A stretch of 64,000 bases of DNA, from assembly GCF_037975245.1 (NCBI RefSeq), contig NC_092579.1:13564678-13628677 (forward strand), in the 5' to 3' direction. The position numbers and the translations under genes are program-made. This document shows, piece after piece, positions 10,979-61,300 of this stretch. Position 1 is the first letter of the stretch. Every line of letters begins with the position of its first letter. The DNA comes from Apostichopus japonicus (taxonomy: Eukaryota > Echinodermata > Holothuroidea > Aspidochirotida > Stichopodidae). Under the pieces are notes generated by a model. That model was not told the DNA's origin, did no database searches, and worked only from the letters and a program-made list of their open reading frames with translations.

Positions 10979-11319
10979 AGTAATTTATCCGGTAACAGTA
11001 ATTTTAACAGTAATTTATCCGGTAACACTTATTTATCCGGTACCAGTAATTTAACAGTAATTTATAGGGTCGCAGTAATTTATCCAGTAACAATAACCTA
11101 ACAGTAATTTATCCCATAACAGTAATTTATCCCATAACAGTAATTTATCCGCTAACAGTAATTCATCCGGTAACAGTAATTTATCCAGTAACAGTGATTT
11201 AACAGTAATTTATCCGGTAACAGTTATTTATCTGGTAACAGCAATTTAACAGTAATTTATCTGGTAACAGCAATTTAACAGTAATTTATCCGGTAACAGT
11301 TATTTAACAGTAATTTATG
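10979..11319. repeat. minisatellite of cagtaatttatccggtaa units
   Basis: About 18-bp units (cagtaatttatccggtaa) interleaved with shorter cagtaatttaa units, roughly 20 in all. It runs directly into the dispersed repeat at 11320, whose first bases resemble the unit. Confidence 0.9.
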
Positions 11320-34300: not shown

Positions 34301-37300
34301 CAACATTTTTTAAAATGTTTTTCAGTGAAATGTTCTCAAATGTTTTCCATAGTGCAATACTATATATTTTTCAATCCACAGCCGAAGAAATCCAAACCTA
34401 AAGTGGTTAAAGAGCTGCCAGAGGTTGGGTTAGATTCAGTTGGTGATATTTCCATCCTCCAAGGTTCACAGGGTGAAGTCCATGTCTTTGCCGATCCAGA
34501 CGACAATGTAACGATTCATCGACGCGATAAGAAAAGTGGAGTGGTGAGCGGAAAAAACAGGGCGGGGCAAAGCAAAATTCAGGTTTTCAAAAACCTGATG
34601 ACAGTCCAAAGAAATGACCAATTAAAACAGTTTAAAATAAAACAAAGAATTAATCTGTAGACTGGATTACAGGCAAAATTGAGCTGTTGAACACCAATTT
34701 GTTTCTTTTAACTAGTTTGATTTTCAAGAGGGATAGGAAGCAAGTGCCTCACCTTGCCTCCCCCCTCCCCCCCCCGACCATCTGTAGATGCCCATGAATG
34801 GTGGTGATGATTGCAAAATTGAGTACACAAATATTGACACAAAGAAGAAGAGTAGCTAAAGATGTTATTAACATCATTTTTGTGTGAGAAGAACTCGACG
34901 GTCTTTCTACATGGTAAACTTGTTTCATGAGTTAATTTGTGAAAGGCAAATTTAATTTGGTGAGAAATACTGAAGGAGTTATGCAATAATTTAAGTAATG
35001 AAACCTGCAGCAGCCAACCGACCAGCTAGTTGAAGGTGTTCTGATGTTACTTCATGTTTGTTGTGTCTATCTGTAAGATGCCCTCATGAGCAGTCCTCCT
35101 AACCACTGGGATTTATGCTGTGATTTGTGAACGAAAAATGAAAATATTTTAAAGGTTCACTTTTTATGTTTCTTTTACTTTTCAGACAAAGTCGTCAAAA
35201 GTGGTCCCCTCCTCTTCGTCAAAGAAACATGGCACATACACGGTAAAGTGGTCTTAACCTTTGACCCACCCGTAAAGAGACATGCTTGGTCTGCAGTTTT
35301 TGTTTATGATTCTCAGAGATTGAATTACCTTTCTGTTATTGAAAGAGAATAGAAGGGATAGGCTAGAAGGATATTTGAGTCAGTGGACCACAAATATAAT
35401 AATTCTTGTTCTTAAACTACCGAGCTAGATCCAATTTGTTGCCAGTTGTCAGGAATTCCTATTGTCTTCTTGGGTACCTTTGCATGTAAAATAAAGAAGA
35501 AGTAGATACACATAAACTCAGAAAGTCGTTAGGGAAGGGATTTTGGGAAATTAAAGCTTTTAATGTTCAAATGTAAGCAAAACAAGAGGGGGGAAAATTG
35601 ACATAACAATTTTAAAAAACGAAACTTTTTTGAAGTTATCTAAATATCTTGTCTTGTATGTGCAGAGTCTGTTACCTGATCCCATACTCTCCCTGCGGAA
35701 GATTGTCGGTTTCGGTGGATGCACTACTAAGGAAGCCCTTTGGGATCATACAGGTTCACATCTCGTGTATCCTTGCCATGCGGTGATCGTCACAATGAAC
35801 ATATCTAACGGTCACCAGAGGTTTTTCATTGGACACACTGACAAGGTAGGATGGGAATTGATAACTTTGTGATGCAAAGGGCACTAGATGTTCCATTTGA
35901 AAACAACAGTAATGATGGTTTGTCTGTTGTCCCTTTTTGGTTTAGTTTTGTCCTTCAAACGATGTGATTTCATCGATGGTTTGATCAGATTTCACCAGAA
36001 TGATTTTGTATAAATCCATTAAATGGGTGAAATAATTTATGACAGTGGCTCAAAATACAAAATCAATGTTTCTTCCTTTCACTGCATCAATAATAGCCAT
36101 CTTGTTGAAGGTGTATGAATAAAAATTTGCATTTGAAAAAAAAAAGTTTTGACAATTTGACTTTCAAACATGGCATTTTCTTAGTGTCTATCTGCAGCTA
36201 TATAAGTATAACATAGTGTGTGATGTTACAGAACTTGTGAAATTGCTGTATTCAATTTATAGTTTTCAGTCTGTAGAGAACCTTTACATCAAATGTAATT
36301 CGTTATTGTACAATCAAAACTACACAATATCATCATGTCCTATTCTATAACGGATCATGTGGGTACAAATCTAGGTAATTTTACCCCCAAAATTTTCAAA
36401 GTGTTCACTCATAATTTTCCATAATCTACCTTATTCCAAAAATATCTCCTTTTTGTTTCATTGCTGTTTTTAATTCAGTAATCATACCTCTAGGGGGGCA
36501 ATATTCTAGCTTTGTCATCCAAACTCAATATTTAAAACAGGAACAAAACAGTTGCCTGCATCAGTAGTCACATTTCACAAGAATACACCTTTAGTTAATA
36601 TGTAAATGAGAACCATGATGGTTTTCTTTCAAGGCTAAGGATATGTTTCTCTTACCATGGTTTTCCTTTCCTGACATTTATAGAGACACTTTGCCAAATA
36701 TAATGTTGGCATTTGAGTGTGTAATGACAGTTGGAGCTTCACCCAGAGCTAGCAGCTTGGAAGTCTTTATAATTCACACTGTTTCTCAATATTTTGTATT
36801 CCCTTCAATGCCAGGTTTGGGTCAAGCATCTGCTCCCCTCCTCAGCCCTCCACATGTGGCTAAACACTTATCCAATCAGATGCATAGCCTGCTTGTTAAC
36901 AACCTTTCTTCAATTGAAAAAATTTATTTGAATGCATGTTTCGTTCACGGCATAGCAGAATCAACAAAGGATATAAAAAATAAAAAATTCAATCTCTCGT
37001 AGGTTTCAGCATTGAGCTTTAACAGTTCCTGTACACTGTTAGCGTCAGCACAGACTGGAGCCCAGAGTGTGGTTCGTGTCTGGAGTTACCAGTCTGGGGA
37101 ATGCCTGGCTATGTTCAGAGCTGAGGCTCATTCACTTCATTGTTTAAGGTAAGACCAACTCTTCATCCAATTGAGTGGTGTGGTGGACTTAAAATCCTTC
37201 TCTAAAGGATTGTAATAATCAAGGAGCAAGATTAGATTCAAATTACCATAATTCCAATCATTCAATTTTGCCCTCTTCCCCGCCCTACCCTGCTTCTTCC

Positions 37301-40300
37301 CCCCTCCACTCCTTCCCTTTCTCCTTCCCCTCCTTTCCCCTCCCTTTCCCCCTCCTGCCTGTACTTCTTCCCCTGCTTCTCGCCTATCTTCTCCCCTCTT
37401 ACCCCTCCTTTCCCTGTTTCTCCCCCTCCTTTTCCCCCACCTTTTCTCCATCAGCAACATTGGTCACCTGCAGAGAAATGTTTGATTTACTGATATTGTT
37501 AGCCATGCTTTTACTTCGAACCTTGATATTGTGCTTCACAATAGTGTGTTTAAAATATGCCATTCTCAAACCAAGGAAAGAGACAATTGCAGCAGTTTTC
37601 TCTTTCTTCATAATCAGACATAAATTATACAATTTTATGCATCTTTTCTTGTACCATTGCTCAAAGGATGAATCATTCTCAAGGGAAACTTGGGGGGGGG
37701 GGGAGGGAGAGAGAGAAACTTTAATCTTTGTCTTCACTATTTGTTCCTCTCAGATATTGTTTTTGTGATTAAATACTAATTAATTTTTTTCTGTCAATTT
37801 TTGTAGTTTTTCCCGGTCTGGTGCTGTCTTGTGTGGAGTCGGTAAAGACAATCATGGTAAAAATGTGAGTATTTTAACCGCTGGATTACTTGTGCAGTGG
37901 AGCTCTGTCTTTTCTTTCATCAATTTAATTTCTCTTTGGTTTTTGGGATGCCGATCTGCTGGATTCAAACAGTGCACTTTAGGTTTTACTTACAAGAGAT
38001 AACTTTTAAATAAGATAATGTGGTTACACTTTACAGTGAAAGGATCATGTGGTATCATAGTGAAATGTTCTATGGGTAAATAATCTATTTCAAAAGAACA
38101 AAAAGGGAACAAATAGCATTTACTTATTTTGTGTTGAATTCTATTGTTGTTGCACATGTGGAGTTTCTACAAAGATAGGCTACATTAACTTACCCACACC
38201 TAACCATGTTTCAATTACATGTTATTATAAAAAATAAGAATAAATTTAAGTTTGTAAACGTTCAGCTTTTGTCAGACAATCCTTGTTTTTTTTTTTAATT
38301 GAATGTGATTAATAATGTTGACAATTGTCTGAGTTTAGCAAAGTTGCTTATGTGGGATGTACAATCACTCATCATGTTTTTAGTTAATGTTTGTGGAATG
38401 TAACCGCATAAATAAACAGGTAAAGATCCATGAAGGACCACAACATGTCTGTCTTCACTATGAAATAATAGGTTCCCCAAAAACAAATGGTACCAATTAA
38501 TTGTATGTGTTTGGTCTTAAGGTGATAATAGTTTTAAGAATACTGAAAAGAAGTACGTTTTTGATGCAGTCGGAATTAACAATTTTTTGTTGGTCCATGT
38601 TGTTCTTGAAGGCGCCATCTTGGTCCTTTTCTTCAACTCAGATAAAACAAACTGAGCTTAATATACATTTGTGAAGTACTTTATTATATGGTGTGTGTCA
38701 GAAGAAATAAACTCTGTTAATGGTATATCTTCCACAGCTGAAATCAAGATTAAATATTTTAAATGGTTCCTCTTGTCTCCTGTTGACAAATTAGGCAGAA
38801 CATTTTCATTCATAAGACAATGCAGGTACTTTGAATTTTGCAGCTCGTAATCGCCTGGCGTACGGCAAGAGTTCACAAAGGAGGGGAAGTGTCCGTCGTC
38901 GCTAAGGCCCATACAGATGTCGAAATCATCAGAATGAAAGTGACCCCTTTTGATGAATCCAGGTAATACTAATTTTGAATAGACGTTTAATAATTAATGT
39001 TGCCATGGCTTTATGGCTTTATTTTAATTAACCTTTTTTTTTGTTGTATTAATATTGGTGATGTGATTAAGAAATGTTATTTTAAAAATTTTGTGGAATT
39101 TGTTTGGTGCTAATATTCTATACTTTTGCTGGACATTCCAATGTCTAATTCCAATTTGTCTAACTTAAAATATGGTTGTCTAAGGCATATGTAATAAATT
39201 ATAAGTAATTTAGTTTTGCCAGACAAAAAACATCACTCATCTGCACCAAGTGGTGGTTTAAACATGTAATCTGGGCAAATGTCCCACAAAGCTGTTGTTA
39301 GGATTTATTATTTTGTTTAGGATAAACCATGTTCATATTTCATGTAAGATATGCTAGATTTTAACTGAGAAAAAGGCTTTAACCTAAGTTTTGCAAAATG
39401 AGAACAGAAATTGCTTTGAAGCATGTTACCACTACTAAATGTAAAGTAAAACCCCTTGAAATATTTCATTTAGAGCTATTACTGAGTCCCTGGAGTATAG
39501 ATGGAAGTTAATGAATTACCAGACTATCGTCAAATATCTCATTTGTGACACTGATTTTCTTCAGAATGGTTTCCTGTGGCCGAGATAATATTAGAATCTG
39601 GCGTTTGAGGAATGGTTCGTTACGATCAGCTCCTGTCAATGTTGGAGAATTCAATAGCACTGAATTTACAGATATATGCTTTGAAGCCGTTCCCCTCCAT
39701 GGACTTCAACCAGCTGATAAAATGTTGTAAGTACAACCTACTATGAGAAAGCATGTGATGTTCATGTGTTGTCCATGTGATGAACTTGTGATGTTCAATA
39801 AAAAGCAATAGAATTCATTACAGTTTTACTCGCCTCACTTGACAAGTATTAACCAGACTAGCAAAAGTGTCTTTGTTCAACCGTATGTAATGGTGAGAGA
39901 AAGTAATATTCCAGTGCCACCTATTTCCCGGATTAGCTGTTAATCTTGAAAGCTGTTTAATAGCCTTGAAAAAGAGAAAACTAAAGCAGTTATGCCAAAA
40001 CATAAGCTCAGTATCTTGAAATATTATAATTTAATATAATACACACACATTTGGTTGAGTACATGTTTTCTGGCATATCCATTTTTTTTTCTTCAGTTAT
40101 GCCTGCTCCAAGTCTGGTCACATATTTCAGATTGATTTTGCTAGAGTATCTGTGGTTCACATCAGGAGACTACTGCCATCTGGGAAACATGTTCAAGAAA
40201 AAAGCACATTTGGATCGGGTAAGAAATTCATCCAGTGGAAAATCATCTCACGTCAACAATGTTTATTTGTATATTTTCTAACAATCAAGAGGGATTGAAG

Positions 40301-43300
40301 ATATTCTTGTTTATCCTCACCAAAACAGCCTATTCTTTGGAATTGGTTGAAATATTAGGTCATCATAGGGAGAAATAAAGTTGTAAATTTTACCTTTTTG
40401 CTGAAGTTAAGACAGGATATATGCATACATATTTATGTAGAGTTGGCATGATTATGACTATACAAACTGCCTATCTACATGAAGAAAAAAAAAACTGTGT
40501 AAAGATATGTATACCACTGAGTACTGATCATTTATTATATGGCTTTTTGTTTAGCAGATAGGCTGACTTTTTGAAGCCAAGGGGAAAGTTGTAGAATTAC
40601 TTTATAAGGATAATAGATATATTAGATATGATATGAAGAGAAAAAGTTCTAGCAAATGAATTACAGACTCTTGTTTTAATTTTGACAGGTCCTGGTATTG
40701 CTATTAACTCTATGGCAATGAGCGAGGCTTTCTGCGTCACAGGATCAGATGATGGATTCCTTCGTCTTTGGCCTCTAGACTTTTCAAGCATTTTCTTGGA
40801 AGCAGGTGAATGATATTTATTTCTGGGATTGTAACAACAAAATTGCTTAAAAGCAATGCATTATTGGACAGGTATATGAAAAAATGTAAATTTGACTGTA
40901 CATTATTAGACAATTACCTCCATATCCAATTAAGAAGCTTCAGCTTGAGTGAAATCAATGATTTGTTTAATCACCTAAAGTCAGTCAATTGACTTTCAAA
41001 ATGAAGGATAGCTGTGTAAAACACTTTAATGACATTAATGATTTTAATTATTGAAAAATCTTAGAATACTTATGAATTGTTCGTAACTGGATGTCATCGA
41101 CAACTTGTATCAAGGATTTCACTGAAACCATATTTCAATTTTAGTTTACATATTTAAGTTTATTTAAGCACAAAATTAATTTTTTTCACTGAGAAACCTT
41201 TAGTCTTAGAAGAGCATTTCAATTGTTGAGCATATTTTAAAGGCTATTGTCTTGTAAATTGGCAAAGGTGTGGAAAATTCACTCTGTTATTTCATTTTTG
41301 TTGGCTTATGGCATCCATTCATTGGGATTTGGTTTCATATATGACTGATATCGTCAAGAGTGTGGTGGCCAATTGGCTAAGGCGTCGGACACGTGATCCA
41401 AGGATTGCTGGTTCGATTCCTGCCTAGTTCATTAGGTTGTGTCCTTGGGCAAGATGCTTTATCTCAATTGCCTCTCTCCACCCAGGGGTTAAATGGGTAC
41501 CTGTGAGGTAACTTGTCATTGGGCGCATTTATAACTGTAGCCGATTGGAGGGATTGTCTCTGGGACAGGTAATCATCGACCAGGGGTAATATAACGTCTG
41601 TAAAGTGCTTTGAGACCTATCGCTGGTATAAAGCACTATATAAAAATCAAATATCATTATCTGTTACTGTACTAACTATAGAATACTGTTGTGACATCAT
41701 AGCAGCATCCCCAGATGTAAATCATACGTTGAATATTCATAAGGGTTCTTACCATATCCTTACAGAACACGAAGGCCCAGTTACGGTGGTCGGTATCACA
41801 GTGGATGGCCTGAACATGCTGGCCGGTACCAGCACCGGTAATCTGGGCTACCTAGATGTCTCCACGAGGAACTACACAACTGTTATGAGATCTCATACAG
41901 GAAGAGTGCTCTGCATGTCGTTGGACCCGGTCAGACGACAGATGGCCACGGTGTCCGAGGACCACACCATCAGATTGTGGGATCTGGATTCATTACAGCA
42001 GGTGAGGGAGAGATGACAATGTTAATTAGGAAATCTAACTTGCTTTCTCTGTTGTATTCACCCTATCTGTGGCAATTAGCATCACATACAGTGGAGGAGC
42101 TTGGTGGTTTTCATGTTTCTGTTTCCAAACCCCTCAGGTAGTTAGATCATTATATCATGAAAAGAATATCTTTTGTACGAGAAAAGTTGGTGGCCTGATG
42201 TATGAATCCTTTCAGAGCCTTGAAGGTACTCTCTAACTTTTTTATATCTTCCTACATAGACCTTTTGTAGTAGATAAAGAGGAGGATTTCTAACAGTTCA
42301 TTCAATCATTCTGCTTTACAACAAGTGTTCCTTTACCTTAACATAAACAAGATGGCATCAATATTGTTCGTCAAAAACTGATAATTCATTGATCACATGT
42401 TTTGAGAAATTTTTCCTACTCTCCTATATATTTTTGTTGACTTACCTCTCAGATATAGTGTTATTAGAATGTAGCCTGCACTGCATTATCATTCATAACA
42501 TCATAGAAGTGGATTGTTTGCAAGTGGGTTTATCTTGAAACTGCTTTATATGGAGCTTAGGAGGTTACCTGGGGACTTGATTCAGGTTTTCAAGATTGTG
42601 TATGGTTTTGACAATTTATCCTTTACCGACTTTTTCATGTTTGCTAATAGTAGTTGTACTAGAGGTCATTGTCTTAAACTCCAAAAGTCACAAAGTCTCA
42701 CAGGTCTGAGTGTTTGTGTCTTCAGTTTTTTTTCTCTCTCCTATAGGGTCCTTGATGGGGACTTGAGTGTCCCTCCTGATCCTTTTTTGCTACTAAACTA
42801 AACTATATATTTACAGTCTTTTAAAATGTCTCCATGTTTATTTTTTTACTCTGTTCAGCTGTTTGATTTCCATTCACCTGTGGAGTGTCCAGTCTCGGTC
42901 TGCTACCATCCTACCATACAATCCTTCGCCTGTGGATTCGATAACGGTGTTGTCAGAATCTTCAGTGTCCAATCAACCAGTCTTATAGCAGAACTTAAGT
43001 GAGTGTTTGCTGTTGTTTTCATTGAAAGTTTACTTTGAATTTAGATATATAATGAAAATGTAGTTTATAGCTATTTTTGTAACTTAACTAGCAAGTAAAA
43101 TGCCATTTTGTGTCAACACTCATTTCATTTTGTTTATTTTATTTGTTCCATAACGATAGTACATAAATATATACTTGAATCAGTGAAAGTAGTACAACAT
43201 TTGTGTAAGGCAGTCTTTGAGGAAGCTTTCTGGCTTTAATAATGTAGAAAACTGCCATACAGGAAAGGAATTCGATATGAAAACAAACAAAAGACAAATT

Positions 43301-46300
43301 GTGTGTACTTCATAACACACAATAACATTTCAAAAAGTAATAACAAGATAAGATAAGATAAACTAAGAAGGATAAGTAGACGTTAATATAACATAGTAAC
43401 GTTATTACACACTCAATTCATTGCATGATTCATGCTGTCTTTACTCACCTGCTGCACCTTTCATTAAGATGCTAGCATAATGCACAATTAACATCCTTTG
43501 TTTCAGAAAGTTGATATGTTTTCAACTTATTTTTATTCTCTTAATTTATCTTCCCCTAAATTCCCCTGAATTCATATAAAATTGTAATCATTGTTGTATT
43601 TTTTTCCCTTTCTTTTTAAAATCTTGATCAGCTATTGCTGCCGGTTAGACTAGTTTTCTTTATAATTGATTGGCCTTTTGTATTCTCTAATCTCACAGAC
43701 AACACAAGGGATCGATTACCGGTCTCTTGTTCTCTCCCAACGGTGCCCGTCTCTGCTCCAGCTCATCCTCGGGTACGCTCGCTCTCTACGACGCCTCCGA
43801 CGATAGATACCCAGTGATGCGTCTCCTTGGTAACATGGTCGCTCGAGGGGAGGACAAGTTTGGACCCGATGCCCTGTCCGGGAGTGAAGATGGACGCCAT
43901 GTAGCGTTTGTCGGTCCATCTGAATTTGCAGTTACTGTGGTTGATGGCAAGAACCTGAATGAAGTAAGTTATATATTTCAATATTTTTTCATTTGTTTAA
44001 TTTTTGCTGTGAAGTACTGTGGATGTTATGAAACCTTGAAGGAATGATTCTCTGGGAAAGAAGAAAAGTTATATAATTTTTTTTTTTTTTATTGGAAGCT
44101 GGTGGATTGGTTTTGATGTGAAACTAACAGAGTTGCTTGCTGTGGTCATTTTAAGGGATGACTCATGTGTAACACTCAGATTTACGAAGATGGCATCTCG
44201 CTAAGGTAGTTTTTGCCTTTGAGATTTTTGAGGCTTACTAAGCCGTTGCTTGAAATGCTTATAAGTGTATCTGTTGATGCCATACGTAAGCTCTTTTATC
44301 TCTCTCTGTTAGTTTAATACTGGGGTGGGCAACCTACGTCCCGCGGGCCACATGCAGCCCGCCAGTGATTTTTTTGCGGCTAGTGAGATGTCTCAAGAAA
44401 AAGAAAAAAATTAATCTATTTTACATAATCACAAAAAACGAGCTAGCTACTTAAATTTATCGGCACTATAATGCTATCAGGTAGGCCAATTATCCCCATT
44501 AATTATCAACTGTACTGGATTGACATTATGTTTTTGTGAATACAGATTAAGTACACACACCTATTGCTTGAAAGTCCTCGGAATGAAAGGTTTGAAATCA
44601 ACAGCAGGTCGTTGGTTAGGTGCGGCCCAGTCAATTTTTTCACTCCTTATATCTGGCCCATTCATTCAAAAAGGTTGACCACCCCTGGTTTAATAGGATA
44701 AGTTACAGTCATTAAGGTTGTGTGAATAACAGGTCACTTTCTTCTGACCAAAATGAACTCTCTGACCACTTTACGTTACTGACTAGCACCATCCCGTCTT
44801 TCATCAGCCATTCTATTGACTCCTGTTTTACTCTTGCCATTATTTATCCAAGAATTACACTACTGGCAGTGTCTCCATTCAGATTAATCCTTTAGTTATT
44901 AACTTTATCATCCTGGCTCTAAATTGTTTTGTTTGCTAATCTGTTAAGTTTGTAGTTGTAAGATTCTGGAAAGTTCCAGGAGCAGCTGTGAAAATGTTCT
45001 CTTATGAATTTAATTCAAAAACTTTTCTCAGTACAGGCTTAATGATGGACATTTTCAATAATGTTCCTTTGTTGTTTTTTTTGGTTTGAAAAATTTCTTA
45101 GTGCAATTATTTTGTGATAGACATAAACACCCAATTTGAATATCTATTTAATATTTACATTTTCCTGTTTGAAATTACAGATATTAAGAATAGACATTTC
45201 TTCGATGGCTCCCGACTCAGATTCGCATGTTGTAGATTCTGCCATCAAGGTTCACTTCGCACCTGAAAAGACAAAGCAGTTATTAGTAGCCACTGCTAAC
45301 TGTAATCTGCTGAGGTTTGACGCTAAATCAGGAAGATTGTTAAATAAGGTAAGAAAAATGTATCACAGATGGAAATAATTTATAAAATCATTTGGTTACA
45401 AAGGGAAGAAAATAATAGATTGCAAGGAAAAACTTTATTCAACAAAGGGTCTTGGAAGGGGAGGAGGAGGGGGATTTGGGACTATATTACCCTTTCCAGG
45501 ATTGTAGCATTCTTGGTGGTCTTGTTACAAATTGAAGTGTTTAGCTTTAATGACTGGAACAGCTCTCACATAAAGGGGCAACAAATATGAATGTTGTTGC
45601 TCAGAAAGTGTTAATATCATACTTTAAAATATGAACATCTTGTTACCTAAAGCACTGTTGACAGAAATGAAATGTAATGATGTAATTTTGTTTCTCCATA
45701 TCTATGCATCACTGTATAGAAAGAGAATGCTGAGCTGCTTAAACCTGTCATTTTTGCTGAAGAAAAAGAGTCTTCTGCTTTGACTTATGTTATGCCAGCT
45801 TGTAGAATGAATGCCTGTTTTGCTGTACACGAAATAAAGTGATTTAAGAACCTGTTGAATTCATCTCCACCAGATATCTGGAGTTCATCGTTCAGGAATC
45901 ACAGGAGTTGATGTTTGTCACGACTGCAGACATCTCGCAACTGCTGGGGACAGGGTCGTCAAAATATGGGATTATCACATGAGATTGGATCTCAACTTTC
46001 AGGTGAGACTGAGTTTTTGTTTTTTTTCCCTTCATTCTGTGTGTGGAATTTTAGATCTCTACAGAAGAATGTAGTTGCTAGTTATTGCTTGAGCAGGTAA
46101 AAAATATATGTATATATAGATATTTATTCTTGAAAGGCTTCCAATATGTTATAAACGAACATGATGAGTTGAAATTTTGATTTATTTTAGAATATCTTGT
46201 AAACAGAATTGGATAAGTTTTTGTATTTTAAAAAAAGAAATAGAAGGGAGGAAAAATCTTAAAATAATGAACTGTGATTCAGCAGTGATCTGGTGGTGAT

Positions 46301-49300
46301 CTTTCAGATGAGAAAGAAAAAAAGTTGTAGAGTTTTGTCAGGAATAACAATCATCAAGATTTTTGTTTTGCTCCTTTTATGGATTTACTGTTAAAAATGT
46401 GTTCACATTTTGCAGTAGGGCTCATGGTTACCACATTGTAATAACCAATCAGAAGAAAGCATTGATGGTTGCTTCACTTATGCATTTTGTTTCAGTAAAA
46501 TTACAAAGTTATTATTTTTGAATTTCATACTTCAGGTGTCAATTGGTCACTCAGAGGTCATCCAGCAGGTCAAATTCACTCCTGATTCCTTAGGTCTGAT
46601 AAGCATCGGAGAAGGGATCTTTCTCTGGGACTTTTACGGAGTAAACAAAGATAAGGAAACCATAAGGTAGGTGGAATAAAAACAGACGTCACAGCCAACC
46701 CAAGCATTACCTTATAAGGAAGTATTACTAACCATGGACGATACCCAACCCCTCCCCTTCCCCCACCCCTACGCAGCTGAGCAAGTTCTCTACCTTCTTG
46801 GAGTAACAATTTAAAGGATTCAAATCAGCTGGTCATATTTTGTTTATACCATATTACATTTAGCACCAGCTTCATTGAAGTTACTAGTTTCATCATTCAA
46901 TAGGGACCCCTTGAAATCAATCTTAATCTTTTGATAATTAGTCTTAAGTAATTAATATCAATATAGACTTCAGCTCCGATTCTTAAATGCAAAACAGGTT
47001 AGGCTAGGTAAAATTTAGCTGTATAAGTGATGGCTCAGGCATCTGTGATTTGTTTTGGAAGATAAAAGACTTTTTTTCAAGATTTGATATATGTGTTGTG
47101 ACATTAATTGTGCATTAGGATAAATAGATATCTTTATGAAGTTCATTTGAAGCTGAGAAAAAGTTTGATAAAAGCTCAGTTGTTTGTTTTAAACAAGTCT
47201 AAAAGTTACATCTCAAAGTTGCTAGGGTTTGGATTTTTCATGTTTACCCTTTACTGTGTTTACTTTCCTCAATGGAAGTGTTTGTTTTAAACAAAAATTA
47301 AAATTTCATTGATTTCAATAGCAACCATCTTATTAATATGAAATTGTGAAAAGAAAGCCTATGGGAATCTTATGGTGGCTGAAATGAACTTTAAACTTCC
47401 AATTCTTTGCAACATAATTAGTTTTCTCTCATCTGTACTGGTAGGATGTCAATCTTAATGCTTTGATGCAGAATTCCACAAAATGTTTTCAACAAAAACT
47501 TCATGATTTTGGTTTGAATTAATTTCTTTTCAATACTTTAGCATAGCCTTTTCATGTTTTTCAGTTATTTTAAACTTAGTTTGAATCATTCTTATTTCAT
47601 TATAACTGATAAAACATATAAAATCAGAAGTTTATGAGGAGTACTTGATTGATTTTCTGTAAGATTCCTTGATTGTGGTTATGTGATCGCCTTATCAAGA
47701 ATGTTTACCCTGGAAGTTTCATGGAATAAACATATTGCTTGCTGAAGCTCACTGGTCTAGATCGGTCATATTGTCAAACAGCCATAATATGAAGAATTTA
47801 TTACGAGGTATAACAGTGCTTTAACATACAACCAAATTTAATTTCCATTTCAGGTCTGGTTACAAACCTCTCTCAAAGTCAGGTATGTAACTACAAAATC
47901 AAACCATTTTGATAATTACAACAGCTCAAGGCTCTTGTTCTTACAACATTTGCCGATGACAAGTATCGTTAGGTGTCATGAAGCAGTCCAAGTTATAATC
48001 TAAACTTATTTGGAATTGTTGTAATTTGTAGACCATTCCATGTATGTAGATTACTCGTGGAGGAAATTGTCCATTTGATTTTTGCTTGGCCATGGCCTGA
48101 TTCCATGATTCTGTAGACATTGAGCAGCATCAATTAGAATGGTGTCTCTTTAAGAATCCAATCAACTGTAATGCAAACAAAATTTATGGTGATATCTTTA
48201 TTATTCTTTTTCCCTTATAATAAAAAGATCTGTGTGACATGTATACACTCTCTAGGCTAAACTTGCTGACTATTTAGATTAAGTTATATTAATAAGTTTT
48301 CCCAAATGTTGGTGATACCTTATGCTTATGTATGTTTGGGTTTGTTACTATTTTAGTGCCTCTAGATTCACCAATGTTGGTGATACCTGATGCCTATTTA
48401 TGTAAGGTTTAACAACTTTCATAGAACATCTATCTTATTTCTTCTAGATCACTCCTTTCAAAGTCCAGTTCGACGTAGTCTGGAATTCAGTCAGAGCCTT
48501 CAGCCTAGGACCAATGTCCCTAAACCGACCACACCAACTGATATGAGTGATGTTAGCAGAGTACAACCACTAGGTTAGTAGCTATAACCTGGCATGTAAC
48601 CTAGCTACTCTTCTTAAGCAAACAATTATGAGATCAGTAAATATGTGATCAGCATCTAAACTTTGCTGGTAGAACTCTAAACCTCAGCCCGTCTATTTCA
48701 AAATCAAGTTAAGGTTGATATGGATGAAGTAAGTAAAGTACAACCAATAGGTTAGTACTAATCACTTAAATTTATATACCTTGGTTACTTTTTCCTGGCC
48801 AGTTGAATTGCTGCACCTATGCATAATATGTGCTGTAAATGAGTTCAGCAAAGTACAGCAGTCGGTTTAATATTTATACCATCGCCACAGCACCGTTCTT
48901 CTACCTTCCTTCTTCACCACTTCATTAACATGTTTCAACTGAACCAGCAGGTGTCATGGTGCTAGTAGAACACTAGCACCATGACACCGTTTCGTGCCAT
49001 CTCCAAGGATGCCAACACCAAGGATGCATTAAGAGTACATATTCACATCGCAATCCTAGATGAACCATCTTGGATGATTTCTCTCTCTTCCAGATGAGAT
49101 GGAAGATACTCCCGACAGAGATGAGGAAGTCCTGGTCGGCCCAGAGTTGGAGAGCAGGAGTGAAATATCTTCAATTGCTGAAGAGGTAAAAACTTATTCA
49201 GTGATGTACAGATTTGAACAATTGTTCCTTCTCTCATGCTTGTTTTCAGTATTTCTGCATGGAAAAGCATGACAGCATTGAGATTAAAATATAGTTTTCC

Positions 49301-52300
49301 ATATTTTTGATCAAATTGATGTAAACAAAGTCTTGGATTCAGTAACATCTTCATTTTCCGCATATTCAATGGATTTCAAAAATAAATAAATGTGGAGTAC
49401 CATTAAATATTCATGTGGGTCATCAATTTGACATTTTTTGCTTTAAAAAGTGAAATTATGATTTTTAATTTACTGTTCTTAATATTTTTCCTTGTATATA
49501 TATTTTATTTAAGGTTTTTTACTGGATGTTTTTTTTTGAGTTAATGATGATATAAAATGTTACAAAATCCTAGCATACCAAATGTGCAAAGAAAATGTGT
49601 CTGAAAAGTTGGCTGATGTTATTAACACCCCCATACCTGTTAAGTACCTCACCCCGCCCCCGAAGGTCATTAAAAGGACAAGTTAACGCCTGTTGAACAT
49701 GAATGAAAATGTGTTGGAAGTGACTTTCAGTTGTTTGACATTTCATTAAGACTGCCTCTCTTTCCTACGCATCAGCTTTGGTGAGAATATTTTATCAAAA
49801 TGACAAAGTAATTCACAAAGCTGCATTGTAAAGAAACAGCTAAAGTATAAATATTTGAGATTTTCCCCTGCCTTTGCACCTTTATTAAGCACTTCCTTTA
49901 AATATCGGACTCATTATTATTTTAGGACACCGCAGGAACAATGGAAACCCTCGGTAGAAGTCGTCAGACTAGATCTCATCAGAGACCTCCATCAGGACTG
50001 GAAGACAGACATCCATCTCCTCCTGAGAAGCTGGATGAGGCGGGTGGTGATGACGAAGATGAAAGTGAAAACAGGAAGCAGAAGAAACCTTCGTGTTTAA
50101 AACACTTCATACCAAAACAGAACAATTCTCAAATGGCACAGGTGAAAACTAAATCAGGCTTAACTTGTTTTGTAATATTTTCCTTTCTGTTTAATTTTAT
50201 ACTTTCGATGAATAGTCAGAGTAAACAGATATAAAAGGTATTGTCTTTGGTTTGCATTTATTAAAAGTACAAATCATTTTTCCAAACTACCCAACAGATT
50301 CTCTCAAGTAGGTAGCTATTGCCATGGTCTGTGTAATTTCTCGGTAGTGTTAGTTCTTGCCATTGAAGACCTTAACATGACCTTAACATGACCTTAACAT
50401 GACCTTAACATGACTAAATTAGATGATATTCACTGTAATCGATTGCAATATTTAGCCAGTACTTTTACATTCAAATTAAGCAAGGCCTACATTCATATAC
50501 TTATACTGCTAGGAAAGGCTGTATTTATGATCTTCAGCCATATGACAACAACTCCGCCCAGATTCTCATATGCAAATTAGGTAAGGCCCTACGGCACATC
50601 CGACTGTTCTTACTTACATCTAAAAATTTGCTGCATAGTCAATATCACTACAAGCTTCATATGTTTTCATCTTGCTCTGCCCTTGTCAACTGGTGTTAAC
50701 AGGAACCACAGAAAATGATTCTTTTTTGCTAACTTACTGCTTTCATATTCATAATCATCTCCAGAGAAGGTACACCGCTCCTCCCAACCAAGCTGGTCTC
50801 AGGCTGAAGTCGGTCTTAGGGTTCAACGGGAATGGAAGAGGTAACGTCATCTGGCACCCGGAGACCGGACTGTTTGTTTACACCAGCGGATGCATCGTGG
50901 TCATCGAAGATCTTAACGATAACTCCCAGAGACATCTACTGGGTAAGAGATACCCCACCTATCCATGCCCTGGGTGATTTGATATTCAAAACATAGAATG
51001 ATTACATATATATTCAAAGACCTTAACGATAACTCCCAGAGACATCTACTGGGTAAGAGATACCCCACCTATCCATGCCCTGGGTGATTTGATATTCAAA
51101 ACATAGAATGATTACATATATATTCAAAGACCTTAACGATAACTCCCAGAGACATCTACTGGGTAAGAGATACCCCACCTATCCATGCCCTGGGTGATTT
51201 GATGTTCAAAACATAGAATGATTACATATATATTCAAAGACCTTAACGATAACTCCCAGAGACATCTACTGGGTAAGAGATAACCCACACATCCATGCCC
51301 TGGGTGATTTGATATTCAAAACATAGAATGATTACATATATATTCAAAGACCTTAACGATAACTCCCAGAGACATCTACTGGGTAAGAGATACCCCACAC
51401 ATCCATGCCCTGGGTGATTTGATGTCCAAAACATAGAATGATTACATATATATTCAAAGACCTTAACGATAACTCCCAGAGACATCTACTGGGTAAGAGA
51501 TACCCCACCCATCCATACCCTGGGTGATTTGATGTTCAAAACATAGAATGATTACATATATATTCAAAGACCTTAACGATAACTCCCAGAGACATCTACT
51601 GGGTAAGAGATACCCCACCCATCCATGCCCTGGGTGATTTGATGTTCAAAACATAGAATGATTACATATATATTCCAAGACCTTAACGATAACTCCCAGA
51701 GACATCTGCAGGGTAAGAGATACCCCACCCATCCATGCCCTGGGTGATTTGATGTTCAAAACATAGAATGTTGTATTATTTATATCACCTACCTGTCTCC
51801 ACACAACCCCTGCACTCTGGTTTGTATCATGTCAAGACTGTTCTTGTAAACATTTAGCGATAGCCTTCCACCATGGATGGATGTTTGTACTTCATATTGT
51901 ATTAGATGAATATGTAAATAGCACTTTTGTCCTTTGTTCTTCTGATACTTTGGCCTTAGATTCTCTAGAAGTTGTCAATGTTAAATCTCAAAGTCCTTTC
52001 TGGTATCTATTACACAAGTACTCTGTCCTTCTATTCCCTGGTAACCATGGAGATCACATGTAAATACCCGTTCCAATTTCTGATTCCCCAAGTACTTTTG
52101 TCAATTGGTTTGAAAAACTGTGGTGGTAGAGAATTCATTAGTTGGCCAATTGATGAAGAACGATTAACTCTCATACTAGCAAAATTAATAGCAAAGACAC
52201 TTTGTGAGTTTACTTAAAGATCTTGCAATGCTCATGCATCTATCATTGTAAGGATCTGTCTTATATTAAAGGTCAGTATGAATCTATTGACAGTTCCAGT

Positions 52301-55300
52301 CACTCCAAGATTAATGTATGTCGTCCAGTTACAGAGTTGTTGACAATTCATAATCATGGACATTAAATATGAATCTAAGAGACTGACTTTGGTCAGCTTG
52401 CGGCTTTGATAAGCCAATGATGGCTTCTTCGCGAGTTCCTGCTTGCAGGAGGATCTAAAATACATACATTCATAAGTGTCTGATGTATTATTTTTTCAGG
52501 ACATGTGGAGGAGATTTCATTCCTGACCCTGCAGCATGACGGTCAGCTGTTGGCTTCAGCGTCTGGATCCAGAGGTCTTACCGGCAGTCAGATCTGTCTC
52601 TGGGATGTTTCCAGTGGTATTTCCACCAAGGTTCTGTCCTACCACGAGCACCAGATTGTCTGTCTAGCTTATTCCAGAGATGACAGGTTTCTGATATCAG
52701 TAGGTGTGTAACCAGTCGGATCAGGCCACAGTACATCACTGCTGTCTATTGTTCTATTGTTTCTATTGTTCTTTTGTTCTATTGTTTCTTGTGTGTGAGT
52801 GTGTAACCTTTGAAGAGGCAAGAGCTCACTGAAACTGAGCAGTATTGACTGTTTAAAGGGCTCTTCCTAATACACTAAAACTGGTATTGGATTGTAGTCT
52901 GCACTGATAGTAGTTGTATTTAATTGTTTGCACATGTCAAAGTAGGTTTTGCCTAAACCATTCTCAAACCAAAACGAAAATGATCATGACCTTATGTGAG
53001 AGAGAGTGTCTGAAGGGGATAGCTGATAAAAGATCTTGTTCCATTGTTAGGTTTAGAAATTTAAAAATTGTGTCACAGGTCGCCTTGTATGTGACCAGTA
53101 TTTCCTATCATGGTCCTGATATGAGTATAATCTCATAGGTTCCCTTTGTTTGTTGTGCTGGAAGTATATTAAATGCTTGATTGACACTGAAAGCTGGAAG
53201 TAATATACATTCTAGTTAATGATGTCTTACATATTTCATATCTGGTATTTAAGAAACACAAGAAAAGAAAATCACCACTGACTCTGTGATGTCATGTTTG
53301 AACTTACTCAAGTCCTTCCTGTAGCACATGAAGGAAGAAAAGAAGGAAACAGATTAAAATTTATCTTACCAATTCATTCTGTTCCTTTTTTGGTGGGGAG
53401 AAGGGTTAAATGTCTTCTCGAAATTCATAACAAGACTGGTTCATCTGTGTGAGTGGACTTTAACGATGTCTTCTTCCTCCTTCTAGAAATAAGAGACCTA
53501 GAAATGAGAGACCTTAACCTCTTGTTCTCTTCTCCATTTGGACCACTTTTGTTGGATATGTTCAGTTTCAAACTGTTTCATATCATATAAAGTCAATAAG
53601 TCAGATAGCTACATTATTTATCCAGTGAATTCTCAGTAAATCTTAAAATGTATAGAAACACATTGAAATCTCCAGAAAATGATCATTATCAGAGACTTAA
53701 TTGTTTTTGGGTGAATTAATGATTCCTATTTCTCTCCCCTTCCAGGAGATTATCGGGACTGTTCTCTGGTCGTCTGGGATACCCACGACTATACCATCCT
53801 AACAGTATCTAGAGCAGCCCTACCCATCCATGAACTGGCCTGGGACCCTCACTCACCGAATGAATTTGCAACCGTCGGTGAAGGGGGAACCGTCTTGTTT
53901 TGGCTGCTGGATGAGACGCATGAGAAATTTTCTCTGAATATCCACGAAGCCGATGTTCCGCAGGACCTTATGGATACAAAAAATATGGTGTGTTAACATT
54001 TTGCTGGTTAATGAAGATATGTATGCTTAATAGTTGAAAGACATATACACTGAGGGTTGTATATCTTACCTGATGCACCTTCATATAGTTAAAATCATAC
54101 ACCTACATACAACTTGATAAAGTTAGGATCACACACTTCATGAAGTTAAGATCATACACTGTCATAAAGTTAAGACCATACACCTTCATACACCTCCATA
54201 TAGTTAAAATCATACACCTTCATATAGTTAAAATCATACACCTTCACAAAGTTAGGATCATGCACCTCCATACAACTTGATAAAGTTAGGATCACACACT
54301 TCATAAAGTGAAAATCATACACCTTGATAAAGTTAAGATCATATACCTTCATAAAGTTAAGATCACACACCTTCATAAAGTTAAGATCATACACCTCCAT
54401 AAACCTTCATAAAGTTAAGATTATCAGACTGGATTGATAAATATTTCCAACGTGTGAGTTCAATGTTTGAAAACTAATGGACCTTTGGTATGGGCTCAAG
54501 AATATGTTCAAAGAGACAGAAAAATGTTAGCAGACTTCTGCAAAGTGTCTGTATAGGTAAGTGGATAGGTTAGAGGGGGTGAGGTTTAAATCCTAGCAGG
54601 ATCTTCTTCAAAGACAAACTGAAACAAAAACAGAGAGGACACATTAAAAACTAGATCTTTTTTGTTCAGTCTATTTTTACTCTATTCAGTGTTCATCGGT
54701 TCAATTTAGTCCGTCTGTCCATCTGTCTAGTTTGAATGTGTCTCTTCTGCTTTCGTTTCAGTTTGCCTTTGAAGAAGATCCTGCTAAGATCAATAAGTCA
54801 GACCCTAAAACTTATGCATTAACATACATGTTGAGATGTTAAATGCAACATGCTAAGAATATGTTGTTTTGCTCAAGTGTATTTCTTTATGAACTATGTT
54901 GAAAGTTCATTTTACAATGCCAAGAAAATGTTGAATGATGGGGATCAAGATGTTCCCCATTTTCCCCCACATTGTTCAAACTTGAATTTGAGCTGGAAAG
55001 AATTGTTCTCAGTAGGTTTCTCATTTCTGTCCTGAGTTAAAATGTGAGGATCGTTCTTTTGACCAACTCCAGATTTTGGGAGACGTAGCATTCACTTGTG
55101 TACAGTACGGTGGAGACAGTGTCCTGTATGTGGGAACCAATACTGGAGTACTTTCAGCTTGGGATACCAGACAGAACTCTTGCTTCATGCACTGGGATGC
55201 AGACTCAGCAGAGATAGGTATGAAGGGAGAAAGGGGACACGATGTCCACATAAGGACTGGTGTCCACATAGGAATGGTGTCTACTTATGAGGTTACACAC

Positions 55301-58300
55301 CAGACACATCTATTATCTCATGCACTGGGAGGCAGCCTCAGCAGAGATAGGGTGAAAGGGGACATGATGTCCACATAAGGACTGGTATCCACATAGGAAT
55401 GGTGTCTACTTATAAGGTTACACACCAGACACATCTATTATCATGCACAGGGAGGCAGCTTCAGGTGCTGTTTTAGTCGTGATCCAACACACACTGATGA
55501 CTGCAAGTCAGGAATACGCTACATGTACAGTTTTCCCGACTGAAGCCGATACGACTTAAAACTGGCAAAACCTTGATCAGTCCTAGTCTTAGCACACACA
55601 CACTGCCCGATTATCCACAGTGTTCCTCGTAATGACTGTCGAGTAATAGGGTTGTGACCAGCCGGGTACAGTACAACAGGCTTATAGCGATCGATAGAGT
55701 AGTATTGCTTGTTGTAGGCAAATGTTATAGAATCTCTCTTGAGAAGAGGTAGTCTGATGTTTTCAATGTGACTGATCTTAGTGATAACACATCCTGATAA
55801 AATATAACATACTAAAGCAATAATAAGAGAGGAATGACTTCAAGTACTATCTGGATGTGGAATCTCACTTTGTCATGTGAATTCTTAACCGTGTTATTTG
55901 TATTGTGGTCTTGTAGATGTTATCGTCTGTAGGTTTGGAAGCAGTCGTCTGATAACAGGAGGTGCTTCCAGGCTCCTGAGACTTTGGTCTGTCTATGGTG
56001 TCGGAGAGATGCGTCTTCTTCCGGGGACACATCAAAGGTAGGACTCACTATGTATACTGTACCTACTTACTTCCTTGAGGAAAAAGGGTATTGATATGTC
56101 TGTGATATAAGAGTGAACGCGGTTCTTTTAATCAGGCGAAAAAAATAAAAGAGGGCGATAATGTTAATACTGACATATGAGTAGCTTGTGTTTTCATGGG
56201 TTTTAAGGTATGTGGCAAATTTTAATTGTGCTGAGGTTGACTACAGAATCTAGTGTTTCAAACCATCTAGATTTGTGTGTGAAAAGAGCTATGATATCCT
56301 AAATACCACTAAAAGAAAATATCTAAGGACTTTACCGACAAACATAATATATAGGATGATTTGATCACTTATGACAGAGGTTGTCATCCCTAGGCAATAT
56401 CCTGTCTGCAAAAATTTTAAAATGAGGCTTGTAAAATAAAATCATGTCAATATCTTGCACTTATCAGGAATGGGGACCTTGAATGCCCTAGGTTGAGAAC
56501 CCTACTGCCCAGAGGACCCCCTTTAATACCTTATCACAAGCACCCTACTGCCAAGATGACCCTTAATGCCCTAGCACAAGCACCCTACTGCCCAGGAGAC
56601 CTTTCATGCCTTAGCACGAGCTTCCTACTGCCAAGGAGACCCTTAATGCCTTAGCTACTGCCAAGGAGACCTTTAATTCCTTAGCACAAGCACCTTACTG
56701 CCCAGGGGACCTTTAATGCCTTAGCACGAGCACCCTACTGCCAACCTGGTATCTTGCTCCATCTACTTATTGTTTTTGGCTCTTCCGGCCCTTTGCTTCA
56801 ACAAATGTTTCTCTCTGACCCTTTGCAATAAGTTAAGTTAGACAACAACCTTTAAACTCAATGATGAATTTTCTTTCAAAGTCTGAATTTAATTGATCTT
56901 ATTATAGAGTCGATGGTCAAGGTTTGGTCATGGAGGATGAGATGACCCTAGATGGCGCTATTACAGCTGCAGAGTTTGACGATATCTTAGACGTGGGTGT
57001 GGTAGCCACTTCAGAGGGGACGCTGTGGTACATCGATTGGGTCAATAGGACCAGCGTACGACTGGTTGGATCTCATTCAAATAAGGTGAGTCGTCATGTC
57101 AAACATGACCATAGCTTTGGACATATTAGGATTACCATAATTATTCAGATGATATTAATGACATATGTTATAACCCACAAGTGAGCAATATGTGAGGACC
57201 TATAAGCTGCATGCACCCAGCGTGCAAGTTTTGTTTTGCATCACAACAAGATTTTCAAACCCTTTAAATGTGGGTTATGGAAACCTATAATATTAGTATA
57301 CTATTTTATCCAACAATGAATCAACTGGCACAATGAGATCCCTAAATGACTGAATGAAGAACAACATTAGTCTTGCGTGATTTCCTATAGATTGCTAAAT
57401 TTGAACACGTTTCTACATCACAGAAGGGAAGTGCATATGTTGATCATTCTGATCGTATAATATTGATTGTTTTGGGAGTTGGTACATACTTAGTTTTTGG
57501 CTGCCTGTGGACAGTTTTGTTTTTAATGGAAGCTCAGAGGGTCAACTTGTGTCCACCATGTATTATAACCATTTGAAATCACCATTGCTTTCCCCATTTG
57601 ATGAGTATTTGAGTAAAAAAACATGGGCCAGTGTTTGAAACAACCCTTGCATGACTGTCCAATCACTTTATTATTGATAGGAAATATTAAAGGGACATAG
57701 ATTGGTGGGACATATTGTTTTGCAGTATCGCTGAAAAACATATTTTTGTTCGAAGGAAAACAGGAAGTTCAACTTTAGATTGATACTTCTCATTATAAAC
57801 CTTTTTTTTTTTAACTATCAAGGTTCATTTGACTCTCAAGTATTGTTATAATTTCAGATCAATGACTTGGCATTCAGTCAAAACGACTTTTTTGCCACGT
57901 CCTGCGACGACGGAAGTCTCAGGATTTTTTCACTCGAGGAAATGGAACCTACAGTTCAGTTTCAAGTCTTGGATCAGGTAGATTTAACAAACTAGAGTCA
58001 TATATTGTAAGATATCTATAGTTATGGACCCTGGGGAGTCTGGAGTGGTGGGAGGACAGTGGTAATCACAGTATTTGTCATTTCAGAAAAGCACACTTCC
58101 ATTCAGTTTCAAGTTTTAGATCAGTTATCAAATTTTGGATCTGAAACTATCTGTAATGATGGGAAGAAAGTTGGGGAGAGCGTAGGAAGGGTAACAATGC
58201 AAAGAAGTGTGTGTAATCATGGCAGTGGGGAGGGGGAGGGGGTGATCTGAGGGTCAATTATTCGATTAAGATGAAGTGCCTGCAGTCTTGGATTAGGTCA

Positions 58301-61300
58301 GGTAACTTTGGTAATGTAATACAAGTCTCTATTAACAAAGATGATCTCAAGACTGATTTGTTTGACTGTGAAAAGAACGTTTTTTTCCTTAAATATTCAA
58401 AGGTTTATATTTCAGTCTTGTGTATAAGAGCTGTCATAAAAAACTTTGCTTGGCAATGCTAGATAGAGCATTAGCTTCACCGATGCCATAGGGCTCAGAG
58501 TTTGAAGACTGCTTGAACTGTAATTTTGTTAGCATTTTTGGTAGTTTTGAATAAAAGAATGCATACCCAATCCAAAGAAAGTTAATATCACCTAAAGCTT
58601 GTAGTACTACCTCTGTAACAAGACATCAGAAATGGAGCTATAAATTCTGGCAAGTGGCTGACACTTGCCTCACATCTTACACAGTAGTAGTATGACAATG
58701 GATTCACTTACATTATCTCTCACTGTTCTCTTCACACACAGGCTAACCTGTATCCTAGGTAACCTTTGAAGGAAAAACGATTTACATGTGTTTAGGTTTT
58801 CAGGAAATTTGTAAATGGGGTTAATTTGGTTTTAATGAATGTGTGAGTATCGGATTCAATGTGTGCTTAAAAGTTGAATGCCCATTTTTTTTTGAATGGA
58901 TTTCAAAACTGTGTTAAATGGTCAGTTGTTTGACCAGCCCAGCACTATATTATTGTTAAGCAGATGTTGCCCTGACTCACATGATAGTATTGAAGTTGTC
59001 TGGTTTTAATCCAATCTAAAGCAGGCTAATTAAAGAAAATGGTTGTCTTTGCAGGGCAAAGTTTTCCTCCAATTAACGACTTTATCGCAAGAATCATTTG
59101 TTTGGATAAGCTTCAGTGCAATTTTTTCTCTCTCAAGAATGTCAGTCTAGCTTTGTGAGAAATTCCTGTTTCAACACGGATATCAATAGTTTGTACGCTC
59201 TCTCAGTAGAAGATGTGTTATCTTTTGTATGATACTCTGAATGAACTTTACTACTACCAGCTAGCTAATAATTAGGTTGTTTCATCAATACAACTATTAA
59301 CTCAACTGTTTATACAAAATGAACTCAAAAGTTGGACTAATGTGCTTTTCTTTCCTTGCCTGTAGTCCACATCAGATTCATCAGATGAGCATCAGATTTT
59401 TTTGTATTTTTTTTACACTTAATGAAATTCCTAAAGTTTCACTTTGTTGACATAAATTTATAATTTGTTTCCTTTGATAGAGTTGTACCTGTTTAGCCTT
59501 CAGTCCACCAGCCTCCAAGGGTAGTCTGAGTCCTTTCACCATCAACGGTGTGGTAGCAGGGTACAGTGACGGCACAGTCCGACTCTTTGACTTATCCAAA
59601 GTCGAAATGGTACTCAAGATGCAACCACAGGCAGTAGCCATCACAAAAATAACGTTTTCTGCTGATGGTGAGTCCTTCACTTTGTATGTAGGTAATGCAC
59701 TTTACTTGAAGAAACCACGCACAGTGTAGGTAGATTTGATATTTTGGCACTGAAATCCAAGCCTCGTTCTCCCTCTAGTGGGACTAACTTTCTTTCTATC
59801 TGTTCGTCTTGTTACCGGTAGATTATGAAAATATTGAATTAAACGACGGGGGTTGATAATATATCTATTAGGATCATATCATGAATAAATAGAAAAAAAT
59901 CAGACACGAATATATCTTTGTCATTCCGTTTTCTGGTCGAGTTCTCAGAGAGTTTTCACTGTGCCTCAAGAAAAACTAATAATCGATGGTTTTGAAATTT
60001 TTGCCAAAATGATAAATATACAGATCATGGTTTGTACAGGCCAGTTTGGTTTGTACTGCAGACAATGAATATTCATTCTACCAGCGAATCATTTACATAT
60101 TCAGGCCATGTCATAATATCCGGGAGTGCGGACGGGATCATCGCCATCAGCAGCCCGACCACCGGCATCACGATGAGGGTGATCGGCGAACATAAAGGAG
60201 CGCCCATCACAGATCTCCACGTCTCCCAGGATGCTGAGCATGTGCCGGGGTTACACTCCCCCCACCTTTGGCTTGCAGCTAGCGCCGACAGGAGAGTCAG
60301 CGTGTGGTCGTCGGATTGGCCGAAAGATTTCTGTGAAATGGTCGACTGGTTGACATTCCCGGCCCCGGCATTTGCCCCCGATGGAACCGCTTTGAAGAAA
60401 AAGGACTTGGTGAGTGATGCAGCTTTAAGGGTTGTAGAATATTATCCAATATGTGAATATATTTACACCTGAAAACTGTTGTGTTCGATGCCCTTGATCT
60501 GATAACATTTTGACAGGTCAGTCACGAATAGTAGAGGTGATGCTAGAAGGTATATTCTGTCAGGTTTCAAGTGATTTGGTGCTCTCTTGTGTGGAAATTG
60601 GTGACATTTTCATGAAAGTCTACCAATGACCTTGGAATGTTGATACGTATTCCTGCAGCCGCCCCAAAATAATTTGTTCCAATTTTACATCCTTTTTTCT
60701 TTTTTCTTGAAAGCATATTTACGAGTCCTAATGATTAAATGATGAAATAGAATTCAGGTTTTTGGAAAAATTAAATGTTGATTTTGAAGAAAAATTTTTT
60801 TATTGGATGGGAATATAATGAAACCATCATCATTAATATATTTGCTGGGCTATGGATTTATCGGGGCCTCATGCAAGTCCGTTATCATTCTGTGATCAAC
60901 TTTCTGTAGATAAAAGACAAAGTTTGATGGTTTTCAAAATAGACTCATACCCACTTTAAGTAAGTATGTTCAAAATAACAATGCAAATATCAACTAATTT
61001 CAGTTGTTCAGGTTGACATGGTAACTAATAATTTTGATCAAGTGTCAAGATGCCTTCATGAACTTAATATAAAACCTTAAATACAATCTGTTGTGTTGGC
61101 AGTATATATCTGCACTGATCAACTATTTCATCATTCCATCCATCTCTGCTCATTCTCCACAGGCTCACTTTCAACTGTTACCGAGCAGTTTGGCTAGATT
61201 CTCTCCATCGGACTCTGACATCATAATTTATGCGGGCTACGGCATGCAGAAAGCGGTTAATTTCTACAGTATATCACAGAAGAAGGTTAGATCACGTAAA

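Follow-up and report, generated by a model that had tools for sequence, protein, structure and literature searches.

The 110-bp array at the end of one WDR90 exon in the sea cucumber Apostichopus japonicus is a real case of a little-known, already described type of repeat, the mirage. Mirages are known from lancelets as minisatellite-like tandem duplications of exon-intron boundaries, in Adh3, BflGb6, BflGb9, troponin C and PGBD5 (PMC3087553, PMC3902484). The WDR90 array is a tandem repeat of minisatellite size whose unit spans an exon-intron boundary and carries a splice signal in all eight units; copied exon ends are found in several genes (three further modelled WDR90 exons and 12/138 donor ends elsewhere), and the array unit itself is unique to its locus. 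We consider it likely that the array is close to neutral, that its first donor would be the one used with the others silent, and that it represents one case of a general class. What may be new is the frequency of such structures in an echinoderm genome, together with a possible donor bias. The features concerned, numbered along the window (i.e. the whole stretch of 64,000 nucleotides analysed), are:

30089..62163, + strand: WDR90/POC16 gene, partial model with 38 predicted exons, one later dropped (own dynamic-programming gene model, Pfam)
50765..50942, + strand: WDR90 exon with the repeated end, phase 0 to 1 (gene model, frame, peptide)
50907..51770, + strand: 110-bp minisatellite, seven full units and a 94-bp last unit (Tandem Repeats Finder, unit table)
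50943..50944, + strand: GT of the first donor, the only one that, with no additional splicing, preserves the WDR90 frame into the exon starting at 52500
50943..52499, + strand: host intron of the array, 1557 nt (gene model)
50975..50977, + strand: in-frame TGA, met if donor 1 is unused (translation)
51001..51675, + strand: the 15-bp stretch ATTACATATATATTC, which ends units 1-7 and is missing after unit 8 (seven exact copies within the window)
51053..51714, + strand: seven further donors, GT at 51053 to 51713 (PWM score, U1 pairing)
52500..52703, + strand: next WDR90 exon after the array (gene model, WD40 match)

Tandem Repeats Finder reports the array as a repeat of period 110 with 7.9 copies, 97% matches, 0% indels and a score of 1623, and each unit comprises the last 36 nt of the WDR90 exon, the donor and 58-74 nt of intron. 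Together with the unit table this bears out the eight-copy, 110-bp splice-donor minisatellite of the original prediction. The last copy lacks the 15-bp end of the other seven and differs just before its donor, where it reads CTGCAGG and the other copies CTACTGG. Units 1-7 show one to three differences each from their consensus and unit 8 shows 11, nine of them in the tail where the sequence is no longer the same. Within the unit, variable columns are about equally frequent in the exon part (3/36) and in the intron part (6/58), and there is therefore no sign that copies were kept for function.

The genome (671,581,487 bases in 35 contigs) was searched with very common words skipped and only the best candidates scored. 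In these searches the 110-bp unit and its 23-bp junction were present at the WDR90 array only, the array locus was found as a single copy in the assembly, and the two exons flanking the array (50765-50942 and 52500-52703) were found at the WDR90 locus only. The 23-bp context of the 15-bp stretch, searched with up to two mismatches, likewise occurred only at the array, so that no source for it was found elsewhere. A mobile element as source of the array was rejected, as further copies of the unit were not found in the genome. Nor were there the dispersed copies that characterise an introner or transposon-borne intron, the unit and its junction lying at the array locus only in a search that skips very common words.

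The host gene was identified as WDR90, a gene of the centriole, by Pfam matches, all above the curated cut-off, to the CFA20_dom, the WDR90/POC16 second propeller and the WDR90 fourth propeller. Its model comes from a small gene finder built for this window and trained on conserved peptides; the 5' end is incomplete, and 22 of the 38 modelled exons contain anchor peptides. The longest modelled exon has 316 nt, and 36 of the 37 modelled introns have at least 99 nt.

All eight units contain GGGTAAGAG, with the GT at 50943, 51053, 51163, 51273, 51383, 51493, 51603 and 51713. Scored with a matrix derived from WDR90 itself, donors 1-7 reach 2.69 and donor 8 reaches 3.9, within the range of 0.1 to 6.0 spanned by the donors modelled for the 22 anchored exons (donor 1 included), 7 of which lie below the array donor. 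Predicted pairing with U1 agrees (-9.2 kcal/mol for the array donors, -8.9 kcal/mol for copy 8). The proposal that all eight donors look usable thus stands, with the donor of copy 8 scoring slightly higher rather than lower. Because the array donors score alike, donor strength does not favour the first one. The reading frame does distinguish them: translation places the TGA at 50975-50977 in frame, and only the first donor keeps the frame, as had been predicted. Use of donor 2 would give an exon of 288 nt, and donors 3 to 8 would give exons of at least 398 nt.

We propose that a short tandem duplication across one WDR90 exon-intron boundary started the array, which would then have grown to eight copies through slippage or unequal exchange. 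Most probably the spliceosome takes the first donor, from which alone a normal message results. The seven downstream donors would be bystanders, since exon definition or 5'-to-3' commitment gives the advantage to whichever donor lies closest to the exon. With its first donor in use, the array would be tolerated and hence near neutral. Exon length supports the use of the first donor, since donors 3 to 8 would exceed the longest modelled exon. Against it, when identical donors are duplicated in vitro the intron-proximal one is often favoured, which would predict use of the late copies.

A different outcome would be expected if the extra donors compete with the first, as suggested in the original prediction: late donors would lead to a premature stop and transcript degradation, and WDR90 output would fall with copy number. 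In favour of such a decoy-donor cluster, donors 2-7 score equal to donor 1 and donor 8 higher, any later donor runs into the TGA unless further splicing intervenes, and the 288-nt exon made with donor 2 fits the range of modelled exon lengths. We nevertheless consider this unlikely because: (i), the same structures occur at 12/138 sampled donor ends, which equals the matched intronic rate (see below); (ii), the exon and intron parts of the unit are equally variable; and (iii), lancelet mirages are reported to leave regular splicing undisturbed (PMC3087553), and the PGBD5 paper gives the Adh and troponin C mirages as free of aberrant mRNAs (PMC3902484). The decoy or regulatory role originally suggested for the array is thus not upheld by the comparison with other exons and with lancelets.

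The array is not the only copied exon end in WDR90. Downstream copies of an exon end together with its donor accompany 4 of the 37 modelled exons (48448-48573, 50765-50942, 55073-55217 and 57858-57977), the first and last of which are outside the 22 anchored exons. The three cases besides the array are:

55073..55464, + strand: second case, exon 55073-55217 (donor at 55218); the end of this exon recurs at 55299-55372 and, in part, once more as far as 55464
48448..48760, + strand: third case, modelled unanchored exon 48448-48573, its end and donor copied at 48716-48760 with 83% identity and the donor intact
57858..58127, + strand: fourth case, modelled unanchored exon 57858-57977, its end copied at 58069-58127 with 72% identity and the GT lost

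Among the same 37 exons, no donor copy was found upstream (0/37) and no acceptor copy on either side (0/37). The exon scan reported matches with z above 4, and a recount of all 37 exons in four tests under the later criterion (given below) returned the same four. Ahead of the counts, the predicted exon 55451-55464 was dropped and a donor was moved from 55351 to 55217, both having been placed inside the duplicate. Gene predictors should take warning from this second case, where our own model first put one donor and one false exon inside the copy.

Two further repeats were noted beside WDR90 exons. In the intron preceding the array exon, positions 50361-50414 hold CATTGAAGACCTTAAC, which matches the exon end CATCGAAGATCTTAAC at 14 of 16 bases and is followed by four copies of GACCTTAACAT. 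This element has GACC like array copies 2-8, where the exon has GATC, and the exon scan gave no flag here; it is possibly an old copy of the exon end, or a chance resemblance. Another, at 31660-32043, is a 78-bp tandem repeat of 4.8 copies; it stops some 26 bases short of the modelled WDR90 exon that begins at 32070, immediately ahead of the pyrimidine tract of that exon.

Elsewhere in the genome, exon ends were surveyed at 160 loci around WD40 (121) and helicase (39) exons, hand-picked among the 150 WD40 and 79 helicase matches listed, with most long open frames, close neighbours and most stop-bearing matches left out. Several of these loci share a gene, so that not all are independent. Once splice sites scoring 0 or less had been excluded, 138 donors and 135 acceptors remained. 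A copy was counted when the local alignment score was at least 22 and the alignment crossed the junction and took in 10 nt of exon or more, a criterion fixed after the first 100 loci (set 1) had been seen; for the 60 loci of set 2 the same criterion was noted beforehand. Leaving WDR90 aside, a downstream copy was found at 12/138 donor ends and an upstream copy at 3/135 acceptor ends (two-sided p = 0.03). Copies on the opposite side were absent, both upstream of donors (0/138) and downstream of acceptors (0/135). Shuffled queries gave 0/2,730 (0/1,380 and 0/1,350) and reverse-complement queries 0/273 (0/138 and 0/135).

The contrast is significant in neither set by itself (7/87 donor against 1/81 acceptor ends in set 1, p = 0.07; 5/51 against 2/54 in set 2, p = 0.26). 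With WDR90 included it reaches p = 0.003, a value to be read with the fact that the idea came from WDR90. Stricter thresholds on the splice-site score gave one-sided p between 0.013 and 0.067, and a test free of splice-site prediction gave 5/160 against 2/160 (p = 0.45). Inspection left two cases doubtful, L122, where only about 5 nt of exon are copied, and L111, which is weak; without them the counts are 11/138 and 2/135 (p = 0.02). At L122 (C3:30311350-30312450), the exon end seems, by eye from the frame, to have a GC donor, AAAG|GCACGT, with AAAG|GTACGT in the tandem copy. An acceptor copy with 1 nt of exon at L055 was excluded under the later criterion. The acceptor copies at L025 and L129 are clear, with 98% identity over 56 and 55 nt and spacings of about 365 and 358 bases; acceptor duplication is therefore not forbidden, which runs counter to a strict donor bias. 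A modest donor bias of duplications is possible.

At matched pseudo-junctions in the introns of the 160 loci, counted by the same criterion, copies were found at 30/318 donor-like and 22/318 acceptor-like positions. Real donors equal this rate (p = 0.86), so that no enrichment of duplications at donor ends was found against matched intron positions in the 160 loci; real acceptors fall below it (p = 0.045). A looser background, in which a nearby copy counted whether or not it crossed the junction, gave 33/312 downstream and 39/326 upstream in WDR90 introns and 62/591 in set 1; the acceptor contrast against this last control (p = 0.001) is no longer relied on. Windows of 40 bases, moved across WDR90 and the 160 loci, showed copies at 12 to 17 of 175 positions between +20 and +140 downstream of donors; upstream of acceptors they showed them at 3 to 8 of 172 between -20 and -100, and at 13-14 further out. 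Acceptor ends thus look weakly depleted of duplications. Duplications carrying an exon end and its donor would persist at about the intronic rate; loss seems commoner among those that carry the start of an exon with its acceptor, perhaps through selection. We put forward only tentatively, as a possibility we would not yet favour, that donor copies persist as if neutral (at about 1/12 donor ends) while acceptor copies are weeded out, leaving a thinned zone of about 100 nt upstream of acceptors. On that reading, a row of identical donors would be used on a strict first-come basis in the animal, and WDR90, with its eight near-identical donors, would be a natural experiment on 5' splice-site choice with position as the main remaining cue.

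For 15 of the 16 donor cases a position could be assigned to the copied donor. In every one of these, translation continued up to the copy runs into a stop, so that without further splicing a normal message would come from the first donor only; the GT of the copy is kept in 13/15 and lost in 2/15.

The array could also be read as a series of in-frame microexons, the junction AG (CAAAG) and the next donor defining a 33-nt unit of phase 1-1 that would lengthen a loop joining WD40 blades by 11 residues, DLNDNSQRHLL. The fit is exact, with 33 nt and equal phase on both sides. Four observations make this very improbable, with the proviso that the model and the matrix both come from WDR90 and do not amount to an outside test: the junction AG scores -2.1 (-2.0 in copy 8), where none of the 22 modelled acceptors with anchored exons is below 1.45; its -3 position is A, where all 38 modelled acceptors have C or T; the internal introns would have 77 nt, against at least 99 nt in 36/37 modelled introns; and the gene model joined donor 1 straight to 52500. 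Intron gain by tandem duplication was rejected in the same way, as the repeat offers no usable acceptor: the best in copies 1, 2 and 8 score 0.24 (CCCAG, giving a 13-nt out-of-frame exon), -0.39 (copy 8 only) and -2.1 (the junction), all below 1.45.

That the units serve as a selected splicing regulator, a binding platform, e.g. for U1, which would protect the first donor or slow the polymerase, could account for the retention of all eight GTAAGAG sites within about 770 nt. It is a poor candidate all the same: the exon and donor part of the unit has no excess conservation, the predicted RNA fold of units 1 and 2 is ordinary and does not go beyond shuffles (z 0.0 and -0.4), and copied donors at other exons are lost in 2/15. 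Least probable of all is an assembly artefact with fewer copies in the animal, which draws on the fact that we infer the link to a named HiFi assembly, since the copies differ by private and shared changes in a mosaic pattern and the genome fits a PacBio HiFi assembly reported at 64x, with a mean read of 14.7 kb and a consensus QV of 48.9 (PMC10344927), so that single reads easily span the 864-bp array.

The near-neutral mirage with its first donor in use, which we prefer, can be set beside several known systems. A human interferon-induced gene (of the IFI6 type) reportedly contains a minisatellite with multiple splice donor sites, whose unit of about 12 bp is itself donor-like and whose distal donors are reportedly used in transcripts. 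There, as in WDR90, a tandem repeat at an exon end yields several donors; the units differ, being 110 bp in WDR90 (36 nt exonic, 74 nt intronic) against the roughly 12 bp said to make up the human one. The lancelet mirages are closer. Like the WDR90 array, they are described as tandem duplications that span an exon-intron boundary and repeat splice signals, with units of about 10-160 bp depending on the gene, and BflGb9 is described as copying the 3' exon boundary, as the WDR90 array does (PMC3087553, PMC3902484). Terminal lancelet units are said to escape homogenisation, and the last WDR90 unit has two private changes in its exon part. Against our preferred reading, the lancelet globin paper allows for repeated signals to serve as cryptic splice sites, and for duplication at either end of an exon (PMC3087553). 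Differences are also evident: BflGb6 is reported to repeat the acceptor, whereas the sea cucumber duplications affect donor ends more often than acceptor ends; two BflGb6 haplotypes are given 3 and 6 copies, against eight in the WDR90 array; splicing of the lancelet genes was, by these accounts, examined by RT-PCR, whereas that of the array is predicted from sequence; and the host is an echinoderm here, a lancelet for the described mirages. No echinoderm mirage was found in the literature searched, of which coverage was partial.

Two other types of duplication resemble the array in part. Human segmental-duplication paralogs are likewise reported to have minisatellites at exon-intron boundaries, some of which form novel introns with alternative transcripts (PMC2812944), whereas the acceptors within the WDR90 unit fall below the gene's own range. 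Intron gain by tandem genomic duplication also starts, as described, from a duplication near splice signals (PMC4974935, PMC2891723); it is said to require that the duplicated proto-splice site act as both acceptor and donor (PMC2891723), whereas the WDR90 junction is a poor acceptor and the array sits inside an existing intron.

How a cell picks one of several 5' splice sites of equal strength has long been asked, mostly with the help of constructed reporters. Should roughly 9% of the donor ends of a single animal carry natural tandem copies, RNA-seq data that already exist could settle at many loci in what order donors are chosen, and the eight near-identical donors of WDR90 would provide a sharp test case.

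The 64-kb window is rich in minisatellites in general: Tandem Repeats Finder returned 62 rows, many of them overlapping, and further minisatellites, several with long units, are at 26560-27078, 10979-11318, 17090-17424, 54077-54421 and 56499-56744. Finally, COX1 of this genome gives a full-length frame under the echinoderm mitochondrial code (table 9), and the Asn and Ile readings of that code suit the known COX1 protein. Several pieces of COX1 are present on contig C29 (14745-31219), besides the mitochondrial contig C35; these are perhaps nuclear mitochondrial DNA or misassembled mitochondrial sequence.
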